Shown here in pieces: positions 6,857 through 16,810 of a stretch of 64,000 nucleotides of DNA. Both the position numbers and the translations under genes were made by a program. Source of the DNA: an uncultured Clostridia bacterium (GTDB taxonomy: Bacteria; Bacillota; Clostridia; Christensenellales; Borkfalkiaceae); contig CALVWI010000002.1 of NCBI GenBank assembly GCA_944367045.1, positions 56,625 to 120,624 of the forward strand, given 5' to 3'. Each line of letters opens with the position of its first letter. Positions within the stretch are counted from its first letter, which is position 1. The notes under the pieces were generated by a model. It saw only the letters and a list, made by a program, of their open reading frames with translations. It searched no databases and was not told where the DNA came from.

Positions 6857-7632
6857 CAAATGCAATGACTTTTGAACATCAAACGTTCGGGAAACGGCTC
6901 AAGACCATGTGCAAGGTCGACTTCCGCCGCATGTTCACGCAGCCGCTCGTCTATATCATGCTCGGCATCAGCCTTGTGATGCCCGCGCTCATCCTCATCA
7001 TGACCACCATGACGGGCGAGGGAGCGGGCGAAAGTGCCGAGATGTTCACCAATGTATGGCAAGCGGTAAGCTCTCTGAGCGGTGCGGGCGGCGGCATGAG
7101 CCTCACTTCCATGTGCAACATGAACCTCATCTACTTCCTTGCGGCGGTCTTGGTGTGCGTATTCGTGGCGGACGACTTCAGAAGCGGGTACGCGAAGAAT
7201 TTGTTCACCGTGCGTGCAGGGAGAGCGGACTATGCGTTCTCGAAATCGCTCGTCGGGTTTGTGTGCGGCGTCGGGATGCTCGTGTGCTATTTCGTCGGCG
7301 CGATGATCGGCGGAGCGATCGCGGGTCTCCCCTTTGCGATGGAGGGCTTCGGCGTCGGAAACCTTGTCGCCTGCCTGCTCGCAAAAGTTTTCCTGATGGC
7401 GGTGTTCACGTCCATCTTCCTTGTGATGAGCGTCATTGCGAAGCAGCGGCTGTGGCTTTCCATCGTGCTTTCGCTGGCGGCCGGCATGCTGCTGTTCACG
7501 ATGATCCCCATGATGACGCCGCTCGACGCGACCGTGCTGCACCCCGTACTGTGCCTTGCGGGAGGCGCGCTGTTCGGCGCGGGGCTCGGAGCCGTCTCGA
7601 CGGTCATTCTGAGAAAGACGAGCGTTGTTTGA
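6853..7632 (+). CDS. ABC-2-type permease subunit (module 2)
   Basis: 259 residues, about six transmembrane helices, and an N-terminal GKRLKTMCKVDFRRMF segment matching that of the first permease. Glycine/serine-rich loops follow the first helix. It forms the last gene of the operon; a GC-rich hairpin follows at 7659. With the ATPase at 5948 it completes a second exporter or immunity pump. Confidence 0.88.
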   Translation: MTNAMTFEHQTFGKRLKTMCKVDFRRMFTQPLVYIMLGISLVMPALILIMTTMTGEGAGESAEMFTNVWQAVSSLSGAGGGMSLTSMCNMNLIYFLAAVLVCVFVADDFRSGYAKNLFTVRAGRADYAFSKSLVGFVCGVGMLVCYFVGAMIGGAIAGLPFAMEGFGVGNLVACLLAKVFLMAVFTSIFLVMSVIAKQRLWLSIVLSLAAGMLLFTMIPMMTPLDATVLHPVLCLAGGALFGAGLGAVSTVILRKTSVV

Positions 7633-7761: not shown

Positions 7762-7780
7762 GCGCAGAGACAGGGATTTG
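7762..7780 (+). repeat. Direct copy of the tRNA-Ser 3' end
   Basis: GCGCAGAGACAGGGATTTG is identical to 7965-7983, which is the acceptor and T-arm end of tRNA-Ser read on the plus strand. The rest of the tRNA is absent. It looks like an attachment-site or tRNA-gene remnant. Confidence 0.7.
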
Positions 7781-7962: not shown

Positions 7963-8052
7963 TGGCGCAGAGACAGGGATTTGAACCCTGGTAGACATCA
8001 CTGCCTAACACGATTTCGAATCGTGCGCGTTCAGCCGCTCCGCCATCTCTGC
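7963..8052 (-). tRNA. tRNA-Ser(CGA)
   Basis: A 90-nt tRNA with an encoded CCA end (TGG at 7963-7965 on the plus strand). Acceptor GCAGAGA pairs with TCTCTGC. The anticodon stem CACGA/TCGTG holds the 7-nt loop TTCGAAA, giving anticodon CGA for UCG codons. A long variable arm, as serine tRNAs have, precedes the T-arm with GGTTCAAATCC. Confidence 0.93.
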
Positions 8053-8175: not shown

Positions 8176-11100
8176 TCACCTGATTTCAATTCTGCTATAG
8201 AAGAGGTCGACATAATTAGGGAAAAAATACTTAGTTAGTTTATCGCTAGTATTAGACAGTACATCAACGCCTTCATCATTATATTCTGGGTCGCCATAAG
8301 CATTACGACCTGCTGTTAAAATATTACTAAATTGAATTTCACTGTTACCAGAAATAGCGTTATGCGTCGCGCGATTATGTGCACCCCAGTCATTATAAAT
8401 TTCATTATCTCTTCCGTAGAAGGTGCCGGCAGAGATTTTGACATTTTCGGAACCGGGGTCGGCAGCAAAATACAATCCCGAACGGTTGCCGCCTTGGAAG
8501 GTTCCGTCATAAATGGTCAGCATGGCATTTCCGTTGCCGTACCAAATGCCATCGTTATCGCCCGTACCGGGGGTAATATTGTAATCAGTCGAGATGCCGC
8601 CCGTATAGGTTCCGCTGTAAATCGTGATCTGCGGAGCGATGGTCGTGTTCGTTTCGATTGCAATGCCCGTTGAAGCGGCATGGACGTTGACATTTGCGCC
8701 GGTCGTAGCCTTTTCAGAAGTCCCACCAAAGTACACGACTGCACCTTGCCAAGCGGAGACACCTGAAGCACCATTTGCAATGATGGTGCCCGATATAAAT
8801 TCGACTGTTCCTTCCATAGCAAACGCGCCGCCTGCATTGGAAGAAAACTCTCCGGCATATACGGTAAGATTGCCGCCTAACAGTTTGAAGCCGAAATTAC
8901 TGCCTGCTCCCGTATAGAAACCAGTAGTTCCATCTTGATTTTTATATTCGCGCTCGTCCCCTCCCGTGAATGTTCCGCCATTGACGGTTGCCGTGCCATT
9001 GGAGACCAAAATGCCGTTGCCGTATGCGGCGGTGTATTTGCCGCCGTCGACGGTCAAGGAGCCACCGACGATTTTGACCGCATCGCCGCCCGTCGTCGGG
9101 GGGCTGTAGGCCCACTCACCGCCTTTACCTTCGGGAATCAAATATTGAGAATAGTATCCATCGCCCTTTGCCGAAACCGTGGGCCCGGTAGTCCCCTGAC
9201 CTAAAACCACGGTGCCGCCGTTGACAAGCACGCCGCCGCCGACATCATTGGTGATGGTTCCCGCCACGATGGTGACGCTGTCGGTCTGCGTGCCGTCGTC
9301 CTCCGTTGTGTTGGCGCTCTCCACGCGCACGGCGTAGCTCTTGACTTTGAACTCGCGATATGCATTTTGCCCCGTAAGCCCCATATTATCACCACTATAA
9401 GGCGAAATGGCATCGCTCTCCACGCCCGTGAAATCGACGTTGAGGGTACCTCCCGATGAATCGAGCGAGCCGTTCTGCACATACACACCGTTGTAGATGT
9501 TGGGAGCGTTCGTAGGTTCGCTCGTTCCCGGGGGCGTGACCCAGCTATAATTTGCATTGTAAATTTTGCTTTCTACCTCGAGCGTTGCATTGTTCTTGAC
9601 CGTCAGCGTGCCGTTGTTGACATAGACGCCCGTGGCATTTTCGGTATTTACCTTCGTCGTGCCGCTCATGACATTGACCTCGCCGCGCGCCGTGATACCG
9701 AGGCTGTCCGACGAGATGTTGACGGTATTATTGAGGTTGATGATGCCGCCCTCCGAACTTACCGCCGAGGAAGTGAGCTGATCGCTCTCAATGCTATTCG
9801 CGACAGTGATATCAGTATCGGCCTTGCCATTCTCTGTGCCGCCGACATTGACCGTGCCCGCGGACGAGAGAACCCCTGCGGAATAGGTGCCGTTGACGGT
9901 AATCTTGCAGCCCGAAATGGTGACGGTGCCCTCTACGGCTTTGCCCGTCGTTTCATCGGTCGTCTCGGTACTGTAAATGCCGAACACGTTGGTGAGCGGA
10001 GCATCTGTACTGCCCGCAGTCATGTTGACGGAGTAGGTCCTGCTGTCGCTCTCGCCCGTGACGGTGCCGTTGACCGTCAGATCGCCGCCGAGCATGTGGA
10101 TGAGCGCGGTACGGGAGGCGGCATAATCGGTCGCCGTGGGGTTACCGGTCGGAACGGGGTGACTGCCCGTCTTCGTAAACGTGCCGCCGGTGACGGTCAT
10201 CTCACCGCCCGACATCAGAATGGTGTCGCCCACCTGGGACGAGAAGTTGCCGCTCGCAATGGTGAGCGTGTCCCCGTTGCTCGCGGACATGCCGATGCAG
10301 GTGCCCTCCCCCGTTGCCGTGAATTTGGGCGAGGAGCTCGCGCTGTCCGTGCCGACCGTCATCGTGCCGCCCACGGAATAGATGCCGTAGGTGTTGTCGG
10401 TGCCGAAGTTCGTCGTGAACGTGCCGCCGCGCGCGTGCGTCACGCCGCCCACGGTGCCGTCCTTCACCGAGCGGATCGCCGCATACGGCCAGGCGAGGCC
10501 CTTTTCTCTGAGGTCGACGGCGGTGGTGTCGTCAGTACTGTCCTCCGCAAGGCCCTTGACGTCGTTATAGCCGTAGACGACGGCGTAGGTCTGGGGCGAA
10601 GTGGCAGTGCCCGCCGTCCCGACGGGATAGTAATAATAGAAATCGCACGAGGCGACGTTGCAGATGGGCGTCAATTGGGTGCCCGTGACGGTGGTAGTCT
10701 GACTACCGCCCTCCCCCGTCGTCGAGGTGCTCTTCGCATTCACATAGAGTTGACCGTCGCTCACAAAGGCGTTCTCCTCTTCAGTGTAGATGAGGTAGGT
10801 GTCGTTTTCGATGTAGGTGTATTGCGTGGTATCGCCCGTGTAGTAGACGTCGCCGCCGAGAGAGGGCATTTCCGTAACAGTGGCATCGAACGCATAGTCC
10901 TCTGCATCGGGACGGGAGCCGTTTCGTTTGTAAACCGTAGCGGTCGTAGATGAAAGAGTTTCCGTTCCCTCAACATTCGGGCCGCTCTCGTAGGAGCCCG
11001 AGCCGATGGTCAGCGAGCCGCCGCTCGTCTGAAGAGCCGAGCCGACAGGGTTGTAGAAGCCGCCCGTCGCCCCCTCCGAGGAGTCGTAGACGAGCACGAC

Positions 11101-11475
11101 GGAGATGCTGCGGCGCACGTCGAGCACGGGGTTGCGGCTGTTGCGTATGACGGTCGTGCCGTTGACGTCCAGCACGAGGTTGGTGTAGACGTCGGCGATG
11201 TCCTCGTTGATGACGAAAGGATCTTCGGCGCCGTCGCCGATCTTGATGTAGGAATAGCCGTTTTCGATGGCGTTGACGAACTCTTCGGGCGACGTGACCG
11301 TGAAAGCCGTCGCGCCGACGAAGTCGATGAGGTCGTCGTAGGTGCTGTTGTCGTCCAGCCTGCCGCCCGTGTAGCGGCCGTAGGTAAAGGCATAGCAGAG
11401 CGACGCCGCCATCAGCGAGATGATGAGCGCCGCCATCACGGCCATGATGAGAATTTTCCTTGTCTTTTCTTTCAT
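8176..11475 (-). CDS. Giant secreted repeat protein, beta-helix-like, SipW-type signal peptide
   Basis: 1099 residues. The N-terminal basic/hydrophobic segment ends in AFTYGRYTGG, matching the F-A-R-Y signature at the signal-peptide ends of its cluster neighbours, so it is a probable SipW substrate. From about residue 130 to the end there are dozens of degenerate 20-25-residue strand-turn units of the type GGxLTVxGGxFT and GTVxVxxGxxT, rich in T, G, N and S. This is the look of a right-handed parallel beta-helix or autotransporter-like adhesin. There is no LPXTG, and the C-terminus ends in SRIEIR without a TM anchor. Likely an extracellular matrix or adhesive component of the fibre system. 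RBS AAGGAGCAGCT; last gene of the operon. The 3' quarter is visibly more AT-rich than the 5' part. Confidence 0.8.
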   Translation of the reverse strand: MKEKTRKILIMAVMAALIISLMAASLCYAFTYGRYTGGRLDDNSTYDDLIDFVGATAFTVTSPEEFVNAIENGYSYIKIGDGAEDPFVINEDIADVYTNLVLDVNGTTVIRNSRNPVLDVRRSISVVLVYDSSEGATGGFYNPVGSALQTSGGSLTIGSGSYESGPNVEGTETLSSTTATVYKRNGSRPDAEDYAFDATVTEMPSLGGDVYYTGDTTQYTYIENDTYLIYTEEENAFVSDGQLYVNAKSTSTTGEGGSQTTTVTGTQLTPICNVASCDFYYYYPVGTAGTATSPQTYAVVYGYNDVKGLAEDSTDDTTAVDLREKGLAWPYAAIRSVKDGTVGGVTHARGGTFTTNFGTDNTYGIYSVGGTMTVGTDSASSSPKFTATGEGTCIGMSASNGDTLTIASGNFSSQVGDTILMSGGEMTVTGGTFTKTGSHPVPTGNPTATDYAASRTALIHMLGGDLTVNGTVTGESDSRTYSVNMTAGSTDAPLTNVFGIYSTETTDETTGKAVEGTVTISGCKITVNGTYSAGVLSSAGTVNVGGTENGKADTDITVANSIESDQLTSSAVSSEGGIINLNNTVNISSDSLGITARGEVNVMSGTTKVNTENATGVYVNNGTLTVKNNATLEVESKIYNANYSWVTPPGTSEPTNAPNIYNGVYVQNGSLDSSGGTLNVDFTGVESDAISPYSGDNMGLTGQNAYREFKVKSYAVRVESANTTEDDGTQTDSVTIVAGTITNDVGGGVLVNGGTVVLGQGTTGPTVSAKGDGYYSQYLIPEGKGGEWAYSPPTTGGDAVKIVGGSLTVDGGKYTAAYGNGILVSNGTATVNGGTFTGGDEREYKNQDGTTGFYTGAGSNFGFKLLGGNLTVYAGEFSSNAGGAFAMEGTVEFISGTIIANGASGVSAWQGAVVYFGGTSEKATTGANVNVHAASTGIAIETNTTIAPQITIYSGTYTGGISTDYNITPGTGDNDGIWYGNGNAMLTIYDGTFQGGNRSGLYFAADPGSENVKISAGTFYGRDNEIYNDWGAHNRATHNAISGNSEIQFSNILTAGRNAYGDPEYNDEGVDVLSNTSDKLTKYFFPNYVDLFYSRIEIR

Positions 11476-11484
11476 AGCTGCTCC

Positions 11485-12861
11485 TTATGCTTTGGGCGTC
11501 TCCGAGAACTGCACGAACGTCGCGGAAAAGCTCACGCCGAATGCGCGCTGCTGGATGGGCGCGTAGGTGTTGGTATCGTCGTAGCGGATCATGCTGACGT
11601 CCTCCTCGCTGAAGGTGCCGTCGAACGAAGTGATGTTGATCCGCACGCCGTTTTTGCAAGCGTAGATGTTCTCTTGCCCCTCTACCTTCGTAAGCGGGTG
11701 GGCGTAGGCGCCGTCGTCGCCCTCGAGGGTCTCGACGTGGAAGTATTCGGGGTCGCCGCCGAACGTCTGCTTGACGCGGACGGTGGTCGTTTCGCCGGTC
11801 GAGCCGCTTACCACGGGAATGCCCGAGACGTCGAAGTGATAGCCGGTGACGGTGATGGTGTCGGAAACGCCGTCGCCGTCGCCGTCGCTCGGGATTGTAA
11901 AGGGCGCAGTCTTGGTCGCCAAATCGTTCCAAAAATCATAATCGGCGGCGGTGGAGTTGTTGATGGCGGCGTTCGTCCAGGTGAGCCAGACGACGATGCG
12001 CTGCTCGCCCGCCTTATCGCCCTGCTTTGCGTCCACGTTGAGGTCGGCGAGGTCGATGTCGATGGAATAGATGGTCATCTCCTTTTTGCAGTCGACGTAG
12101 ATGGGCGAGAGAAGGCCGTTGTCGTCCTCGCGGACGAACCCGACGGAATAGGCGCGCTTCTCCTCTTTCGCGGAGATGGTCAAAGTATTCTCGTTGCTTT
12201 CGCCCCAAGTTGCGGTGACGGAGCCTCCGACGGTACCGTCTTCATTCTCCGTAAGGCCGCCGTTCATGGTGAGCGTGGCATCCTCCGTTCCCAAGGAGCC
12301 GTAATCTGTGGAATCTGCGGTATTGAACGAGCCGCTCGTGCCCCAATCTTTATACTCGCCGTAGGTGATATCGTGGTCACCTTCGGAGTTCCTCACTTTC
12401 ACGAGGTCGGCGATGACGAACTGCGGGGTGAGGACGGAATCCGAGGCGATGTTGCGCGATGTCGTGAGCTGCAGGGCGATGTTGTTCCAATAATCGGCGG
12501 GACCCTCTAAATGGAGGGTGGGATGCACGTCGGTGTCGCCGTTGTTCTTTAAGGTGATGCCCACGGTGATGGCGGTGCCTGCGCCCTGCGCGATCTGAGT
12601 CCCGCCCGCGGTGATGTAGTAGTCCTGATTGCCGAAGGACGTCGTGTTGACGCGGTCGATGGAATAGGTCGCGTCGAAGGCGGCGATGCCGACGGAGGCG
12701 TCCACCTTGTCGTTCGTAAGATAGCGCGCAAACGTCACGCCGGAGAAGAGCAGCGTCACGGCGAGAAGTAAGCTGAGATATTTAATAAAAGGATATTGAA
12801 TTTTTTCCGCGCCTGCGGGCACAGCCCTTCGGGAGGGCGATTCAGTTTTCCTTCTCCTCAT
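11485..12861 (-). CDS. Secreted TasA/CalY-like or adhesin protein with SipW-type signal peptide
   Basis: 458 residues. A basic N-terminus (MRRRKTESPSRR) is followed by the hydrophobic core KYLSLLLAVTLLFSGVTFARYLT, after which the mature part starts DASVGIAAFDATYSI. The same 'xSxGIAxFD/EWDV' start follows the signal in the TasA-like protein at 14549. The signal peptide type is the one processed by SipW-class peptidases. The remainder is beta-rich, acidic and Thr/Asn-rich without a sortase motif. The start overlaps the sipW-like gene's end by 20 bp and has AAGGAG in front, so expression is coupled. Probable fibre or matrix subunit; the exact fold is not assignable by eye. Confidence 0.8.
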   Translation of the reverse strand: MRRRKTESPSRRAVPAGAEKIQYPFIKYLSLLLAVTLLFSGVTFARYLTNDKVDASVGIAAFDATYSIDRVNTTSFGNQDYYITAGGTQIAQGAGTAITVGITLKNNGDTDVHPTLHLEGPADYWNNIALQLTTSRNIASDSVLTPQFVIADLVKVRNSEGDHDITYGEYKDWGTSGSFNTADSTDYGSLGTEDATLTMNGGLTENEDGTVGGSVTATWGESNENTLTISAKEEKRAYSVGFVREDDNGLLSPIYVDCKKEMTIYSIDIDLADLNVDAKQGDKAGEQRIVVWLTWTNAAINNSTAADYDFWNDLATKTAPFTIPSDGDGDGVSDTITVTGYHFDVSGIPVVSGSTGETTTVRVKQTFGGDPEYFHVETLEGDDGAYAHPLTKVEGQENIYACKNGVRINITSFDGTFSEEDVSMIRYDDTNTYAPIQQRAFGVSFSATFVQFSETPKA

Positions 12862-13384
12862 GGCTTGGCTCCTTTTTGGTTTTTTTACGGCTCACAAGGT
12901 CGCACAGCACCCAAATGAGCGCCGCTGCGACGACGATGACGAACATCCCCAAGGGGGTCTGACAGAATGCGGCGACGTTGCCGAAGCCGCGCAGGACGAG
13001 CACCACCTCGCCCACGATGTCCTCTTCATGGACGATCCACGGGTCGACGGACCCGCCGTTGTTGTCCCCCATCGTGCGGAAGCCCTCCTCGGTCTCCTCC
13101 ACGATGCGGTGGGTGGTGTAGACGCCGTCGTTTTCATACATGACGATATCGCCCACTTCGTAGCTGTCCTTCGCGAGGGTGACGATGTAGTCGCCCGTGT
13201 TGATGGCGGGCTCCATGCTGCCCGAGAGGACCGCCGCCGTCGCAAAGCCCAGAAAGACGGGCATCTGCTGCTTATAGGCAAGTTTTGCCACCATCACGTA
13301 GATGTTGTAGATGAGCAGGATCCCCACGAAGAGGATGAGGAGGACGCGCACGGCGATGGAGATGGCGGAGAGCGCCTTCTTCAT
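12842..13384 (-). CDS. sipW: Signal peptidase I, SipW/ER type
   Basis: A 180-residue membrane peptidase. TM about 9-31; catalytic S56 in LSGSMEP; catalytic H92 in TTHRIVE (ER/SipW-type His replacing the bacterial Lys); GDNN at 106-109 with D114 as candidate third residue; second TM about 141-161; basic tail. In Bacillus subtilis, SipW removes the signal peptides of TasA and TapA. Its location among three proteins with matching signal peptides says it does the same here. It overlaps the upstream membrane protein gene by 4 bp. Confidence 0.92.
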   Translation of the reverse strand: MKKALSAISIAVRVLLILFVGILLIYNIYVMVAKLAYKQQMPVFLGFATAAVLSGSMEPAINTGDYIVTLAKDSYEVGDIVMYENDGVYTTHRIVEETEEGFRTMGDNNGGSVDPWIVHEEDIVGEVVLVLRGFGNVAAFCQTPLGMFVIVVAAALIWVLCDLVSRKKTKKEPSHEEKEN

Positions 13385-14373
13385 GCGGTCTCCTCCGCGT
13401 CATGCTTCATGGCGGAGATGGTGAGCGTGAAGGTGTACTCCGCGCCGTTTTCGCCCGCGTTGGTGTCGACGGGGTCGTCGTCCGCCCAGTACCACTCGAG
13501 CACGAAGAACTGCGACGAACCGCTCATGATGGTGAGGTCATAGTCCATGTTCTCGATGTCGTCGTAGCCCTCCTCCGCGGTGAGGTAGTGGCCGTCGCGC
13601 AGGAGGCGGTAGCGGATGTCGATGCCGAAGTCGTTCTCCTCGGTGCAGACGAGGGTGTAGTCGAGCGGGTACTCGTTGAGGTTTTCGAGAATGAAGCGGT
13701 AGGAGCCGCTCATGCCGGGGATGATGGCGTCCGTATCGAAGTAGTCGTTCTCAAAGATGGGCAGGTTTTGGATGTGCTGCCAATCGGTGCCCTCGACGTC
13801 GGTGATGCGGATGACGGGCACGTCGTCTGCATCGGAATTGATGACGAAGAAGGAGCCGACCACGCCCGTGATGAGGGTGAGGAGCAGCAAAAAAGCGAGC
13901 GGCAGCACGAGCCACATCCGTTCGAAGGCGCGGATGGTGGCAAGGTGCGCGTGCTCGTTGGAAAAGACGTTATGGTCGCGGTCGACATAGCCGAGCGCCT
14001 TCTCGCCGTCGCGGAAGAGGACGTGCGCGCCCTCTTTGACGAACTCGCCGAGACGGCTGCCCGATTCGTCGTACCAGACACTGTTTTTGATTTTTCCCAT
14101 GCGGCGGCCGTCGCGTGCAAAGGCCTTGCCGCGCCTCGGGAGTTTTCCCTCGGGGATATTCTGCGCGGGAGGGGTTTGGGGCTCCTCCGCGGTGTTTTCG
14201 GAAAAAGTAGTTTGTTCTTCGGGAGCTTCCGAAGGCGCTGCTTCGGGCGCTGCCTGTTCTTCGGCGGACACTTCGGGTGCCGCTTGTTCCTCGGCGGGTG
14301 CCGAGGCGATACTCTGTTCGCCCTCTGCGGGCGTGACGCCCTCTTCGGGGCCGAGATGTTCGAGATCGGTCAT
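13381..14373 (-). CDS. Membrane-anchored TasA-like protein with disordered cytoplasmic arm
   Basis: 330 residues from the ATG at 14373, chosen over a farther upstream in-frame ATG because GGAAGGGGGG precedes it. Residues 1-73 are acidic and Pro/Ala/Glu-rich. Residues about 76-150 form a basic, beta-hairpin-like domain (VWYDESGSRLGEF, VLFRDGEKALGYVDRD). One TM helix is at about 154-177. The extracytoplasmic 150 residues resemble the TasA-type sandwich (GSYRFILENLNEYPLDYTL). No cleavable signal is seen, so it is predicted N-in/C-out and could anchor the fibre at the membrane, analogous to TapA (inference). It overlaps the sipW start. Confidence 0.72.
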   Translation of the reverse strand: MTDLEHLGPEEGVTPAEGEQSIASAPAEEQAAPEVSAEEQAAPEAAPSEAPEEQTTFSENTAEEPQTPPAQNIPEGKLPRRGKAFARDGRRMGKIKNSVWYDESGSRLGEFVKEGAHVLFRDGEKALGYVDRDHNVFSNEHAHLATIRAFERMWLVLPLAFLLLLTLITGVVGSFFVINSDADDVPVIRITDVEGTDWQHIQNLPIFENDYFDTDAIIPGMSGSYRFILENLNEYPLDYTLVCTEENDFGIDIRYRLLRDGHYLTAEEGYDDIENMDYDLTIMSGSSQFFVLEWYWADDDPVDTNAGENGAEYTFTLTISAMKHDAEETA

Positions 14374-14458
14374 ATTCCCCCCTTCCGCACGGGCAAAACT
14401 GCCTGCGGGTATGGACAAAGAGAGTGCTTTTCGGGCGCGATGCGCCGATACGGATGAC

Positions 14459-14499
14459 AAAAGAGGCAGCCGCACCGCCGCCATACCAGCGGCGCGGCT
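14459..14499 (-). terminator. Intra-operon attenuating terminator
   Basis: On the minus strand, GC-rich arms (14499-14489 with 14481-14468, one bulge region) are followed by CTCTTTTG. It sits directly after the abundant-subunit gene and before the anchor, peptidase and large-protein genes, so partial readthrough would set high subunit and low accessory expression. Confidence 0.55.
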
Positions 14500-14548
14500 C
14501 TCCCTTTAAAATTGCCTCAAATGTATGGATTTGAGATTTTAGGTTTGG

Positions 14549-15208
14549 TTATGGTTGGGTTTTGTCTGGAATCTGAGAGTCCTGGACTGCGGTGTAAGTA
14601 AGCGTCCAGGAAACCTTGGTTGCATACTGACCGATCCAGGTATCGAGGGAATCGCCAGCGGTACCATCGGAGCCACTATCCTGCGTGGTCCAAGTGATCT
14701 GCGCGAAGATATACAGAGTACCGTTTTCGGCAACAACATTTTCAGTTGCGCCAAGCTCCGTAGTCGTGGTCGTATCGGTAGCATTTTCACCCTTGTAGAA
14801 TTTGATCGAGAAGCATGCTGCTGCCTCAGAACTTCTATCGGTTCCAGTATAACCAGAAGCCGTAACGGTAGCCGTACCATTGCCCGTAACTGTAACAAGC
14901 GCATCAACATCGCCGGTATTGGTGATGGTTGCGACAAGGAACTTCTCGGTAGAGTTGGAACGAGTAGTTTCAGCATCCGTATATGCCGTTTTGGAAGGCG
15001 AAAGCTTATTGGCATCTTGTTCCACATCAAACTCAGCAGAGGGAGTAACTGTGACGTCCCACTCTGCCACGCCAATGGAAGCGGCACCCGAACCACTTGC
15101 AGTATATCTTGCAAACGTACTGCCGAGGAAGCAGCAGCTCAGAAGCGTCAGAGCGGCGATCACGATGAGCACTCTGGTCAGAATGCGCTTCTTATCTGAT
15201 TTTTCCAT
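14549..15208 (-). CDS. TasA/CalY-like fibre subunit
   Basis: 219 residues. Signal peptide core LIVIAALTLLSCCFLGSTFARYT, then SGAASIGVAEWDVTV. This matches the SipW-cognate signal and the start of mature TasA/camelysin proteins. The body is a small Thr/Ala-rich beta sandwich with ATITNTGDVDALVTVTG and FAQITWTTQ, as in TasA-family repeats. A strong AAAGGAGAT RBS, codon use and GC content lower than its neighbours, and a hairpin right after the gene all fit a highly expressed structural subunit. Probably polymerises outside the cell as a biofilm-type filament. Confidence 0.82.
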   Translation of the reverse strand: MEKSDKKRILTRVLIVIAALTLLSCCFLGSTFARYTASGSGAASIGVAEWDVTVTPSAEFDVEQDANKLSPSKTAYTDAETTRSNSTEKFLVATITNTGDVDALVTVTGNGTATVTASGYTGTDRSSEAAACFSIKFYKGENATDTTTTTELGATENVVAENGTLYIFAQITWTTQDSGSDGTAGDSLDTWIGQYATKVSWTLTYTAVQDSQIPDKTQP

Positions 15209-15287
15209 AATGTATCTCCTTTCAATTTATTTGCAAACCGGCCCGGTATGGCGTCAGGCCGTTTTCGCAATCGTATTTTACGGGGCC

Positions 15288-16508
15288 TTACCCCTCCACG
15301 GGAGGCTCCGCGGCCTCCATTGCCTCCACGGGCGCCTCTTCGGGCACTTCGGCGGGCATTTCCGCGGGCATTTCCGCGGGAACTTCGCTATCGACGGGCG
15401 CTTCCACAACTGCCTCCACGGCCTCTGCGGCGGCCTCTGCCACTTCCGCGGGAACGGAGACGAGCGCCTTGAGACGGGCGATCTCCTCGTCCTTCCTGCG
15501 CAGGCGCTCCTCCTCGGCGGCACGCTTCTTGCGGCTGTCGATGGAGATGCGGATGATGTCGTAGATGACATACAGGACGACGGGAATGCCCACGAACACG
15601 AGCACGCCGACGGGCGTCTGCAGGAACATCGCAAACGCGCCGAGGCCCGCAACGCTGCCCGTGACGATGCCGATGACGTTATCTGCCGACACGGTGAGCG
15701 GCACGGTGACGCCCTCGATGACGTCGTTGTCGCCGATGACGCCGAAGGCGATGACCTCGCCCGCGTCGTTTCGCATGACCTCCGCAATGCGCAGCGTGAC
15801 AAACAGGTCGTCGCTCGAACGGAAGGTGACGACGTCGCCCACCTCGAGCGCGGAAACTTCCTCGGGCGTGAGAAGGTCGACGAAGATGAGCGAACCTTCA
15901 TCGAAACAGCCCTCTTCATCGCCCGCCATGGAATCCGTCGTGACGGCGAGCGGGGCGACGCCGAAGAGATCGGGCGGCATCTCGGGGTTCAAACTCCCCT
16001 TGATGATGAGCGTGAGATTGATGCATAAGAGCGGCAAAAGCAGCACAATGAGAAGGACCGTCACCGTGATGGCGATGGCGTTCCTCACCTTGTGCTGCTT
16101 GGGAGCAGGCTCTGCCGCCGCAGCTTCGCTCGCTGCGGGCACAGCCGTATTGTTCTGTTGTACTGCCTCCCCTTCGGGCACGGCATCGGCGGCCTCGGGC
16201 GCTCCTTCCGCGGGTGCGGCCTCTTCCGAAAGTTCGGCAGTTTCGGGCGCTTCGGCGGTTTCGGGTGCGGCGTCGGGGACATAGTCCGCCCCGTCGACGG
16301 GCACATATGCCTCGTCCGCGGAGGCAGCGTCAAGCGGCGCCCCGTCGGGTGCGCCCGCCTCGTTCGATTGATTCAGCGGCGTTTCTTGTTCGGGACAGGA
16401 AGAATGTGCCTGCGCCTCCGCGCCCTCCGCCGACTGCGCGGCAAACGGCTCGGCGGACTGCAAGCCCTCCGTCCCGGCGGGATCGTCCCGCACAGGTCTA
16501 TCGTCCAT
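15288..16508 (-). CDS. SipW-like signal peptidase homologue lacking the catalytic His (pseudo-peptidase)
   Basis: 406 residues. A disordered Ala/Glu/Pro-rich N-terminus (1-135), TM about 143-169, then a SipW-like domain. The serine is kept (TTDSMAG, S193), but the position of His in the intact peptidase (TTHRI) is Leu239 (VTLRI). GDND (259-262) is followed by E265 rather than the usual spaced Asp. A second TM about 286-318, a charged helix (EEERLRRKDEEIARLK) and a C-terminal repeat PAEMPAEMPAEVPEE follow. It is the first gene of the fibre operon, behind the consensus promoter and an AAGGAGGAG site. Probably inactive as a protease; it may bind substrates or scaffold the active SipW (inference). 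Confidence 0.8.
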   Translation of the reverse strand: MDDRPVRDDPAGTEGLQSAEPFAAQSAEGAEAQAHSSCPEQETPLNQSNEAGAPDGAPLDAASADEAYVPVDGADYVPDAAPETAEAPETAELSEEAAPAEGAPEAADAVPEGEAVQQNNTAVPAASEAAAAEPAPKQHKVRNAIAITVTVLLIVLLLPLLCINLTLIIKGSLNPEMPPDLFGVAPLAVTTDSMAGDEEGCFDEGSLIFVDLLTPEEVSALEVGDVVTFRSSDDLFVTLRIAEVMRNDAGEVIAFGVIGDNDVIEGVTVPLTVSADNVIGIVTGSVAGLGAFAMFLQTPVGVLVFVGIPVVLYVIYDIIRISIDSRKKRAAEEERLRRKDEEIARLKALVSVPAEVAEAAAEAVEAVVEAPVDSEVPAEMPAEMPAEVPEEAPVEAMEAAEPPVEG

Positions 16509-16661
16509 TTCTCCTCCTTGAAGGGCGGCCCGTATGGCAGAGGCACGGCCCTTCTTCAGTTCATTTTAATGCGCTCACGCCGACGTACTTTGCGGAAGTG
16601 CGCCGACGGGAGAGCTTTCGGGAAATGAAAATATGCCGATGAATTGCTTCATCGCGGAGTT

Positions 16662-16690
16662 ATTATAGCACGGGGAAAGGGCGCTGTCAA
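16662..16690 (-). promoter_or_regulatory. Consensus promoter of the fibre operon
   Basis: Minus strand TTGACA (16685-16690), 17-bp spacer, TATAAT (16662-16667) with a TGc extension. The untranslated leader to the first gene at 16508 is about 145 nt, long enough for post-transcriptional control. Confidence 0.85.
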
Positions 16691-16797: not shown

Positions 16798-16810
16798 CCC
16801 CCCCCCCCCC
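16798..16810. repeat. Homopolymeric tract of 13 cytosines
   Basis: C13 on the plus strand (G13 on the minus), about 108 bp upstream of the -35 of the fibre operon promoter. Such tracts are prone to slippage in replication and in sequencing. Confidence 0.9.

Follow-up and report, generated by a model that had tools for sequence, protein, structure and literature searches.

This report concerns a six-gene operon, g1 to g6, in a stretch of 64,000 nucleotides (the window) of contig CALVWI010000002.1, from an uncultured Clostridia bacterium of the Borkfalkiaceae. TasA-type fibres have mostly been studied as building blocks of Bacillus biofilms. We consider it fairly probable that this operon builds a TasA-type fibre on the cell surface, that its subunit gene, g2, is swapped by cassette, and that poly-G tracts switch the operon in several relatives. 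A preliminary reading of the same DNA, made from the letters alone (the sequence-only reading), had proposed a distinct surface-filament system that differs from tapA-sipW-tasA of Bacillus. The gene set, the difference from Bacillus and, by prediction, the kind of system bear this out; the fibre itself we infer. Subunit exchange, slippery tracts and a retained pseudopeptidase are of greater importance than the points which that reading made. All six open reading frames (ORFs) that it counted exist; they occupy positions 16508 to 8176 of the window on the minus strand and form one operon; g1 and g4 are related to the signal peptidase SipW, g2 is the putative subunit, g3 the putative anchor, and g5 and g6 are secreted (Table 1).

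The locus set comprises 46 loci from a scan of an 84,980-species collection with one short peptide pattern. The sequence-only reading had proposed a search for co-occurrence in related genomes, and all six genes stand in the same order and on the same strand in 33 of the 46; judged from these arrangements, the set is a conserved system, more than chance. Candidatus Gallimonas, Borkfalkia, Scatosoma and Coproplasma are the named taxa among the loci, most of which are labelled just uncultured Clostridia or Firmicutes. The remaining 13 are nine loci cut by contig ends, three distant relatives (L099-L101), and L082, which is without g1 and has g5 and g6 each in two ORFs. A search with the g3 protein gave matches in 28 of 201 sampled family genomes (the window's own included), which represent 8 of the 18 genera. 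In another family, three loci (L134-L136) have the order g5-g6-g2-g3-g4, with no g1 found within the stretch; therefore g2-g3-g4 may be the core of the system and g1 an addition. The window, L056, L057, L058 and L059 form a clade with a support of 100 on g3 and g4, 96 on g5 and g6, and only 44 on g1.

The mature part of g2 is inherited differently from the rest of the operon. Distances and trees were computed for 31 taxa (of 34 complete sets, L087, L093 and L094 were dropped for fused or over-long ORFs); the distances of mature g2 correlate with those of the other genes at a Spearman coefficient of 0.21-0.32, against 0.60-0.83 for all other single-gene pairs, and its identity is 0.32-0.42 in seven of the eight closest pairs. 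For L057/L058 and for the window and L056, sliding windows show high identity over the signal-peptide codons, about 30-56% in the mature part, and a return to high values before g2 ends or within the g2-g3 gap. In L057/L058 the synonymous divergence (dS) is 1.55 for mature g2, 0.12 for the g2 signal peptide and 0.12-0.43 for the remaining genes; the corresponding values in window/L056 are 1.28, 0.27 and 0.21-0.82. One pair has a dS of 0.06 in g2 against 1.2-2.0 in the neighbouring genes, and another pair the reverse. L068 and L085 share an 893-bp block of 97.4% identity that spans just g2 and its near flanks. An all-against-all comparison of 38 g2 proteins (those of L064 and L087 were dropped beforehand) gave two pairs more than 94% identical and one more at 66%. 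Robinson-Foulds distances and dS single out g2; approximately unbiased tests reject foreign topologies for control genes too, and therefore do not. From the distances, sliding windows, synonymous rates and allele matches it follows, as far as sequence comparison goes, that g2 alleles move between genomes and species as a cassette.

Compared with 398 family genomes, the window's g2 finds counterparts only for its initial 158 nt or for short patches, and any match at all occurs in 36 of these genomes, its own included. No second full copy was found in its own genome (93% complete), where apart from g2 itself only the g2-like N-terminus of g5 matches; this speaks against a silent store of copies there, and the source of the window's g2 is therefore probably outside its genome.

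The G13 tract of the window is its only run of eight or more G or C, and the longest run in 40 simulated windows (first-order Markov) was 11. L056 has a G13 too, at the same distance from g1. The window's tract lies outside the spacer between -35 and -10, where a phase-variable poly-G promoter would carry it. In a survey of 44 operons (the window and L056-L098) the operon regions (376 kb) contain 19 runs of eight or more, of which 17 precede genes or lie between them, and the 369 kb outside contain 2 (binomial p 2e-4, which treats the loci as independent, although they are not). Seven of the 44 loci have the tract within the spacer, before g1 in L057, L058, L059, L067 and L081 and between g1 and g2 in L068 and L085; these promoters have 11 or 12 of 12 consensus matches and spacers of 15-19 nt, the best fit being picked per run without a shuffled control. 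The spacers of L057, L058, L068 and L081 measure 17, 18, 15 and 19 nt, respectively.

The exact promoter TTGACA/G8/TATAMT occurs at least once in 129 of the 398 family genomes, with up to 18 per genome, and the reversed control pattern is absent among the matches listed. Class-wide, one of 196 genomes, of the same order as the window's, has the exact pattern, and the reversed control matched once; differences in base composition between the two sets are controlled by the reversed pattern only. The 30 fetched poly-G sites gave 28 first downstream ORFs, of which 18 begin with a hydrophobic segment; among control ORFs of at least 200 aa taken at other loci, 67 of 344 do so. A few of the 28 seem to be mis-called, and L163 and L172 share the same start and are thus not independent. 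The exact pattern does not occur in the window's own genome, which has six separate tracts of at least G10, including the one at this operon. A poly-G run in a spacer is a sequence signature of phase variation; since tracts occupy promoter spacers in several relatives, switching is likely there, and it is unproven for the window's copy. The poly-G promoters of L161-L190 mostly precede lipoprotein-like or exported proteins, and those of L187 and L188 precede ABC-transporter ATPases, as judged by eye. Runs of G9-G11 also stand 18-51 nt before the called g3 start in L072, L083, L084, L087 and L093, with no promoter match, and possibly mediate translational switching.

The protein g1 is the His-less SipW homologue of the sequence-only reading, and its His is indeed replaced by Leu. 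It scores 58.5 bits against the Bacillus SipW model, below the cut-off of 190. Its acidic N-terminal arm has about 132 residues, the peptidase domain lies between two transmembrane (TM) segments in a TM scan, and the cytoplasmic tail looks like a coiled coil. An active SipW-type peptidase requires the catalytic Ser and His; in the window, TTDSM is present and VTLRI stands in place of the relatives' THRI. Among 38 g1 proteins (a g1-like match in L101 was excluded before the count) each of the 33 that fall outside the window's clade has the pair intact, and none of the five clade members does: the residues are Ser/Leu in the window and L056, Ala/Tyr in L057 and L058, and Asp with the His shifted by one place in L059. 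The pair is also kept, as judged by eye, in L129, L130 and L132 from other families. The simplest reading of these sequences is a single loss of catalysis in the clade, with the fold retained for another task.

The proposed small TasA-like subunit agrees with the predicted fold of g2, the best Foldseek match of which is the TasA fibre; in the VIA-align list 8aur is only 41st. The model groups with donor-strand pilins, as expected of a TasA-like beta-sandwich subunit of the donor-strand type, and the low-confidence stretch 29-46 at its N-terminus would fit a free donor strand. PF12389 (TasA/camelysin) has no match in the window's own genome; with E allowed up to 0.1, it is also absent from the families matched by g2 and by the 34 relatives aligned with it. 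The TapA model TIGR04087 matches three of 16 g2 proteins when E values up to 0.1 are admitted, the best at 0.0011; the protein of the window is not one of the three. Scans of g2, g5 and g6 with NCBIfam and Pfam gave scattered weak matches only, searches of PDB sequences with g2, g3, g5 and g6 profiles nothing of use, and PADLOC no match. We presume that the system is a variant of TasA-type fibres and would work like them, while it is not a member of the TasA family by sequence.

The common signal-peptide end that had been noticed on three proteins (FARY in g2 and g5, YGRY in g6) is enriched: its loose form occurs in 36 of 40 g2, 39 of 42 g5 and 26 of 40 g6 proteins, most of those printed without it having mis-called starts, whereas 47 of 938 other ORFs carry it. 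As in TasA-type systems, a SipW/ER-type peptidase (g4) is encoded together with its presumed substrates; the genome also encodes a general signal peptidase. The signal peptide of g2 contains adjacent Cys codons (window 15131-15136); across 35 aligned g2, Cys26 never varies and Cys25 hardly ever does, and the pair is better conserved than most of the mature protein.

The low identity of mature g2 almost everywhere, as in many surface proteins, could mean a plain TasA-type biofilm fibre with no variation programme, in which g2 diverges between species through rapid point mutation and the G tracts are coincidental. We consider this quite improbable, since dS rises together with the divergence of g2 in L057/L058 and window/L056, two pairs carry near-identical g2 inside divergent operons, and G runs are concentrated at the operon. 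A comparably small chance is left to an artefact of chimeric assembly. The record titles mark the loci as metagenome-assembled genomes, a misjoin is plausible where a variable gene sits between conserved flanks, L074 (cut by a contig end) has no detected g2 between g1 and g3, and the bin names of L068 and L085 are similar; however, the pattern occurs in four pairs and in both directions, L063/L070 and L057/L058 come from different record series, the g2 of these pairs sits in the same contig as the flanking genes, and the family genomes match the window's g2 in part only, as given above.

Two further rivals concern single proteins. It is unlikely that g1 is simply decaying in the Gallimonas clade. 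Ser and His are altered differently among the members, and the ratio of nonsynonymous to synonymous rates (dN/dS) by NG86 in window/L056 is higher for g1 (0.45) than for g4 (0.33); against decay, the ORF, TM segments and tail are kept in all five members, and the dN/dS of the g1 core (0.10-0.15 in L057/L058, 0.14-0.45 in window/L056) is near that of the intact g4 (0.10-0.13 and 0.16-0.33), i.e., g1 is under purifying selection near that on g4, somewhat weaker by one method. Very unlikely, in our opinion, is the proposal that the products are monomeric secreted or lipid-anchored surface proteins rather than fibre subunits, with the Cys pair of g2 as a lipobox. The conservation of the pair suits it, but the hydrophobic stretch runs past Cys to a FARY end that is also found on g5 and g6, these two have no Cys pair, and the predicted fold of g2 is pilin-like.

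For the fibre with an exchanged subunit we propose the following mechanism. The protein g2 would be exported and its signal peptide cut by g4; the freed N-terminal strand would complete the beta-sandwich of the next subunit (donor-strand exchange). The sandwich ectodomain of g3, held by one TM helix, would be the fibre base, with the beta-flower and the disordered arm inside the cell. We presume that g5, whose N-terminal region is common with g2, is a minor subunit or an adaptor carrying g6, and that the giant repeat protein g6 is an adhesin or a sheath. The hairpin downstream of g2 in the window may raise the g1-g2 message over the rest, giving more subunit than base. In most relatives g1 would be a second peptidase; in the window's clade it has lost catalysis and is kept perhaps as a membrane scaffold. 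Cassettes of other species would replace g2 between the conserved signal-peptide end and the g2-g3 gap, and slippage of the spacer poly-G should switch the operon in several relatives. Phage, host antibody or rivals could drive the variation. It is tempting to unite all this in one surface-variation programme, a TasA-type fibre with poly-G switching and cross-species subunit cassettes around a fixed export and anchor core and a non-catalytic SipW scaffold; we hold this wider view only tentatively.

In Clostridioides difficile, S-layer cassettes are exchanged by recombination; there too a gene of a surface structure is swapped, but the protein is different, and the exchange here crosses species. 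The S-layer protein SlpA of C. difficile is a phage receptor. The phase-variable fimbriae and porins of Bordetella and Neisseria have promoters with a G or C run between -35 and -10; the position of the run is alike, and the difference is that we find it in Clostridia, at several loci in many genomes.

The closest described operon that we found is sipW-bsaABCRSD of Clostridium perfringens (PMC7395162). It likewise belongs to Clostridia and has a gene for a SipW-type peptidase immediately followed by that of a small fibre subunit, a predicted terminator after the subunit and more secreted proteins downstream. Unlike it, our operon has two peptidase genes, a beta-flower/TM protein, a giant repeat protein and subunit exchange, and no two-component genes among the six. 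The likeness to tapA-sipW-tasA of Bacillus subtilis (PMC9674648; PMC10151520) lies in SipW with a TasA-like subunit, the TasA fibre being the best Foldseek match of g2, and in a second protein with an N-terminus common to the first, g5, which could play the part of TapA; here, however, there is no PF12389 match, and a membrane-tethered sandwich protein, a pseudo-SipW and g6 are added. The short-stranded barrel of g3 beside a hydrophobic helix resembles the beta-flower fold PF21784/PF21785 (PMC10584680), but its score is under the curated cut-off and it is fused to a sandwich ectodomain, a context that the available part of that paper does not mention. In the part of the open-access listings covered, we found no description of g2 exchange in SipW/TasA systems or of SipW pseudoenzymes, and this claim is accordingly weak.

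If our reading is correct, a related-looking machine serves uncultured bacteria as a variable coat, with a subunit that moves between species, slippery tracts in some promoters and a peptidase turned pseudoenzyme. These Clostridia would have a system of phase and antigen variation open to testing on long-read metagenomes, with no need for culture. It would also be a natural test of the second role reported for Bacillus SipW in surface-attached biofilms (PMC4238804, citing Terra et al. 2012).

Table 1. Features of the operon in the window (positions of the window)
Feature	Position	Strand	Description
G13 tract	16798..16810	minus	about 108 bp upstream of the operon promoter -35
Operon promoter	16690-16662	minus	TTGACA-17-TATAAT, TG before -10; 12/12 sigma-70 consensus matches
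g1, SipW-like pseudopeptidase, 406 aa	15288..16508	minus	acidic N-terminal arm, TM, peptidase domain (Ser kept, His to Leu), TM, charged cytoplasmic tail
g2, putative fibre subunit, 219 aa	14549..15208	minus	SipW-type signal peptide (FARY), TasA-like beta-sandwich
Terminator-like hairpin, g2-g3 gap	14499-14468	minus	13 pairs, then GCCTCTTTTG
g3, putative anchor, 330 aa	13381..14373	minus	disordered arm, beta-flower 81-148, TM helix 153-179, sandwich ectodomain 184-329
g4, intact SipW-type signal peptidase, 180 aa	12842..13384	minus	TIGR02228 75.4 bits, cut-off 51.85
g5, secreted protein, 458 aa	11485..12861	minus	first ~110 residues homologous to g2; co-inherited with g6
g6, secreted glycine-rich repeat protein, 1099 aa	8176..11475	minus	only the signal peptide common with g2

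The start of g3 is most likely 14373, after GGAAGGGGGGAAT, and not 14484, which is inside the g2-g3 hairpin. The sequence-only reading described a membrane-tethered TasA-like protein with a disordered cytoplasmic arm. The TM helix, the sandwich ectodomain and the low confidence of residues 1 to ~70 in the structure prediction (counted from 14373) agree with this; the start has moved, and residues 81-148 are ordered, with eight short strands predicted at high confidence (predicted local distance difference test about 96). These strands fit the match to the beta-flower PF21785 (24 bits, E 3.5e-5, below the curated cut-off of 38), which 2 of 20 g3 proteins match at E up to 0.01. The entry 8aur is absent from the 50 best rows of the Foldseek list for g3, and profile comparisons did not show homology of g2 or g5 to g3. 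Over the order, the g3 profile matches 135 of 297 genomes; among the matches listed most span only profile positions ~10-160, an N-terminal domain that is fused to g3 in many relatives and is also found elsewhere, and eight matches reaching the ectodomain were followed up. This extra cytoplasmic domain, present for example in L061:8726-10798, is absent from the window's g3; it has no Pfam match in the two proteins scanned, and profile matches to it recur across the order, often several per genome.

The intact SipW peptidase of the sequence-only reading is g4, which exceeds its TIGR02228 cut-off; with the SipW-Bacillus model NF046067 it scores 66.8 bits, under the cut-off of 190, and Ser and His are both kept in 44 of 44 proteins. 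The repeat protein g6 is beta-helix-like, as judged by eye. By their sequences, g5 and g6 may be exchanged as a second module. In L063/L066 the identity of g5 and g6 is 0.38-0.40, far under that of g1, g3 and g4 (0.62-0.73).

The ORFs overlap at g3/g4 and g4/g5, g5 and g6 are 9 bp apart, and there are gaps after g1 and g2. The hairpin region 14450-14548 has a folding z of -4.86, and L057 and L058 have a near-identical hairpin; in the window it is a possible partial terminator. A terminator after g2 as a general rule was rejected, being found in only 10 of 40 loci. In L096 the gap between g1 and g2 is 1.5 kb and contains a small ORF (7307-7591) that looks like a GIY-YIG nuclease.

The amylase and sugar-hydrolase genes that adjoin the window's operon stand at high identity beside L056-L058 only, among the loci searched. 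The two copies of a 19-bp direct repeat, which corresponds to the 3' end of tRNA-Ser (CGA), lie just downstream of the operon at 7762-7780 and 7965-7983, 203 bp apart, and look like a remnant attachment site. L056, L057 and L058 likewise have a tRNA-Ser directly past the operon; that of L058 is on the opposite strand.
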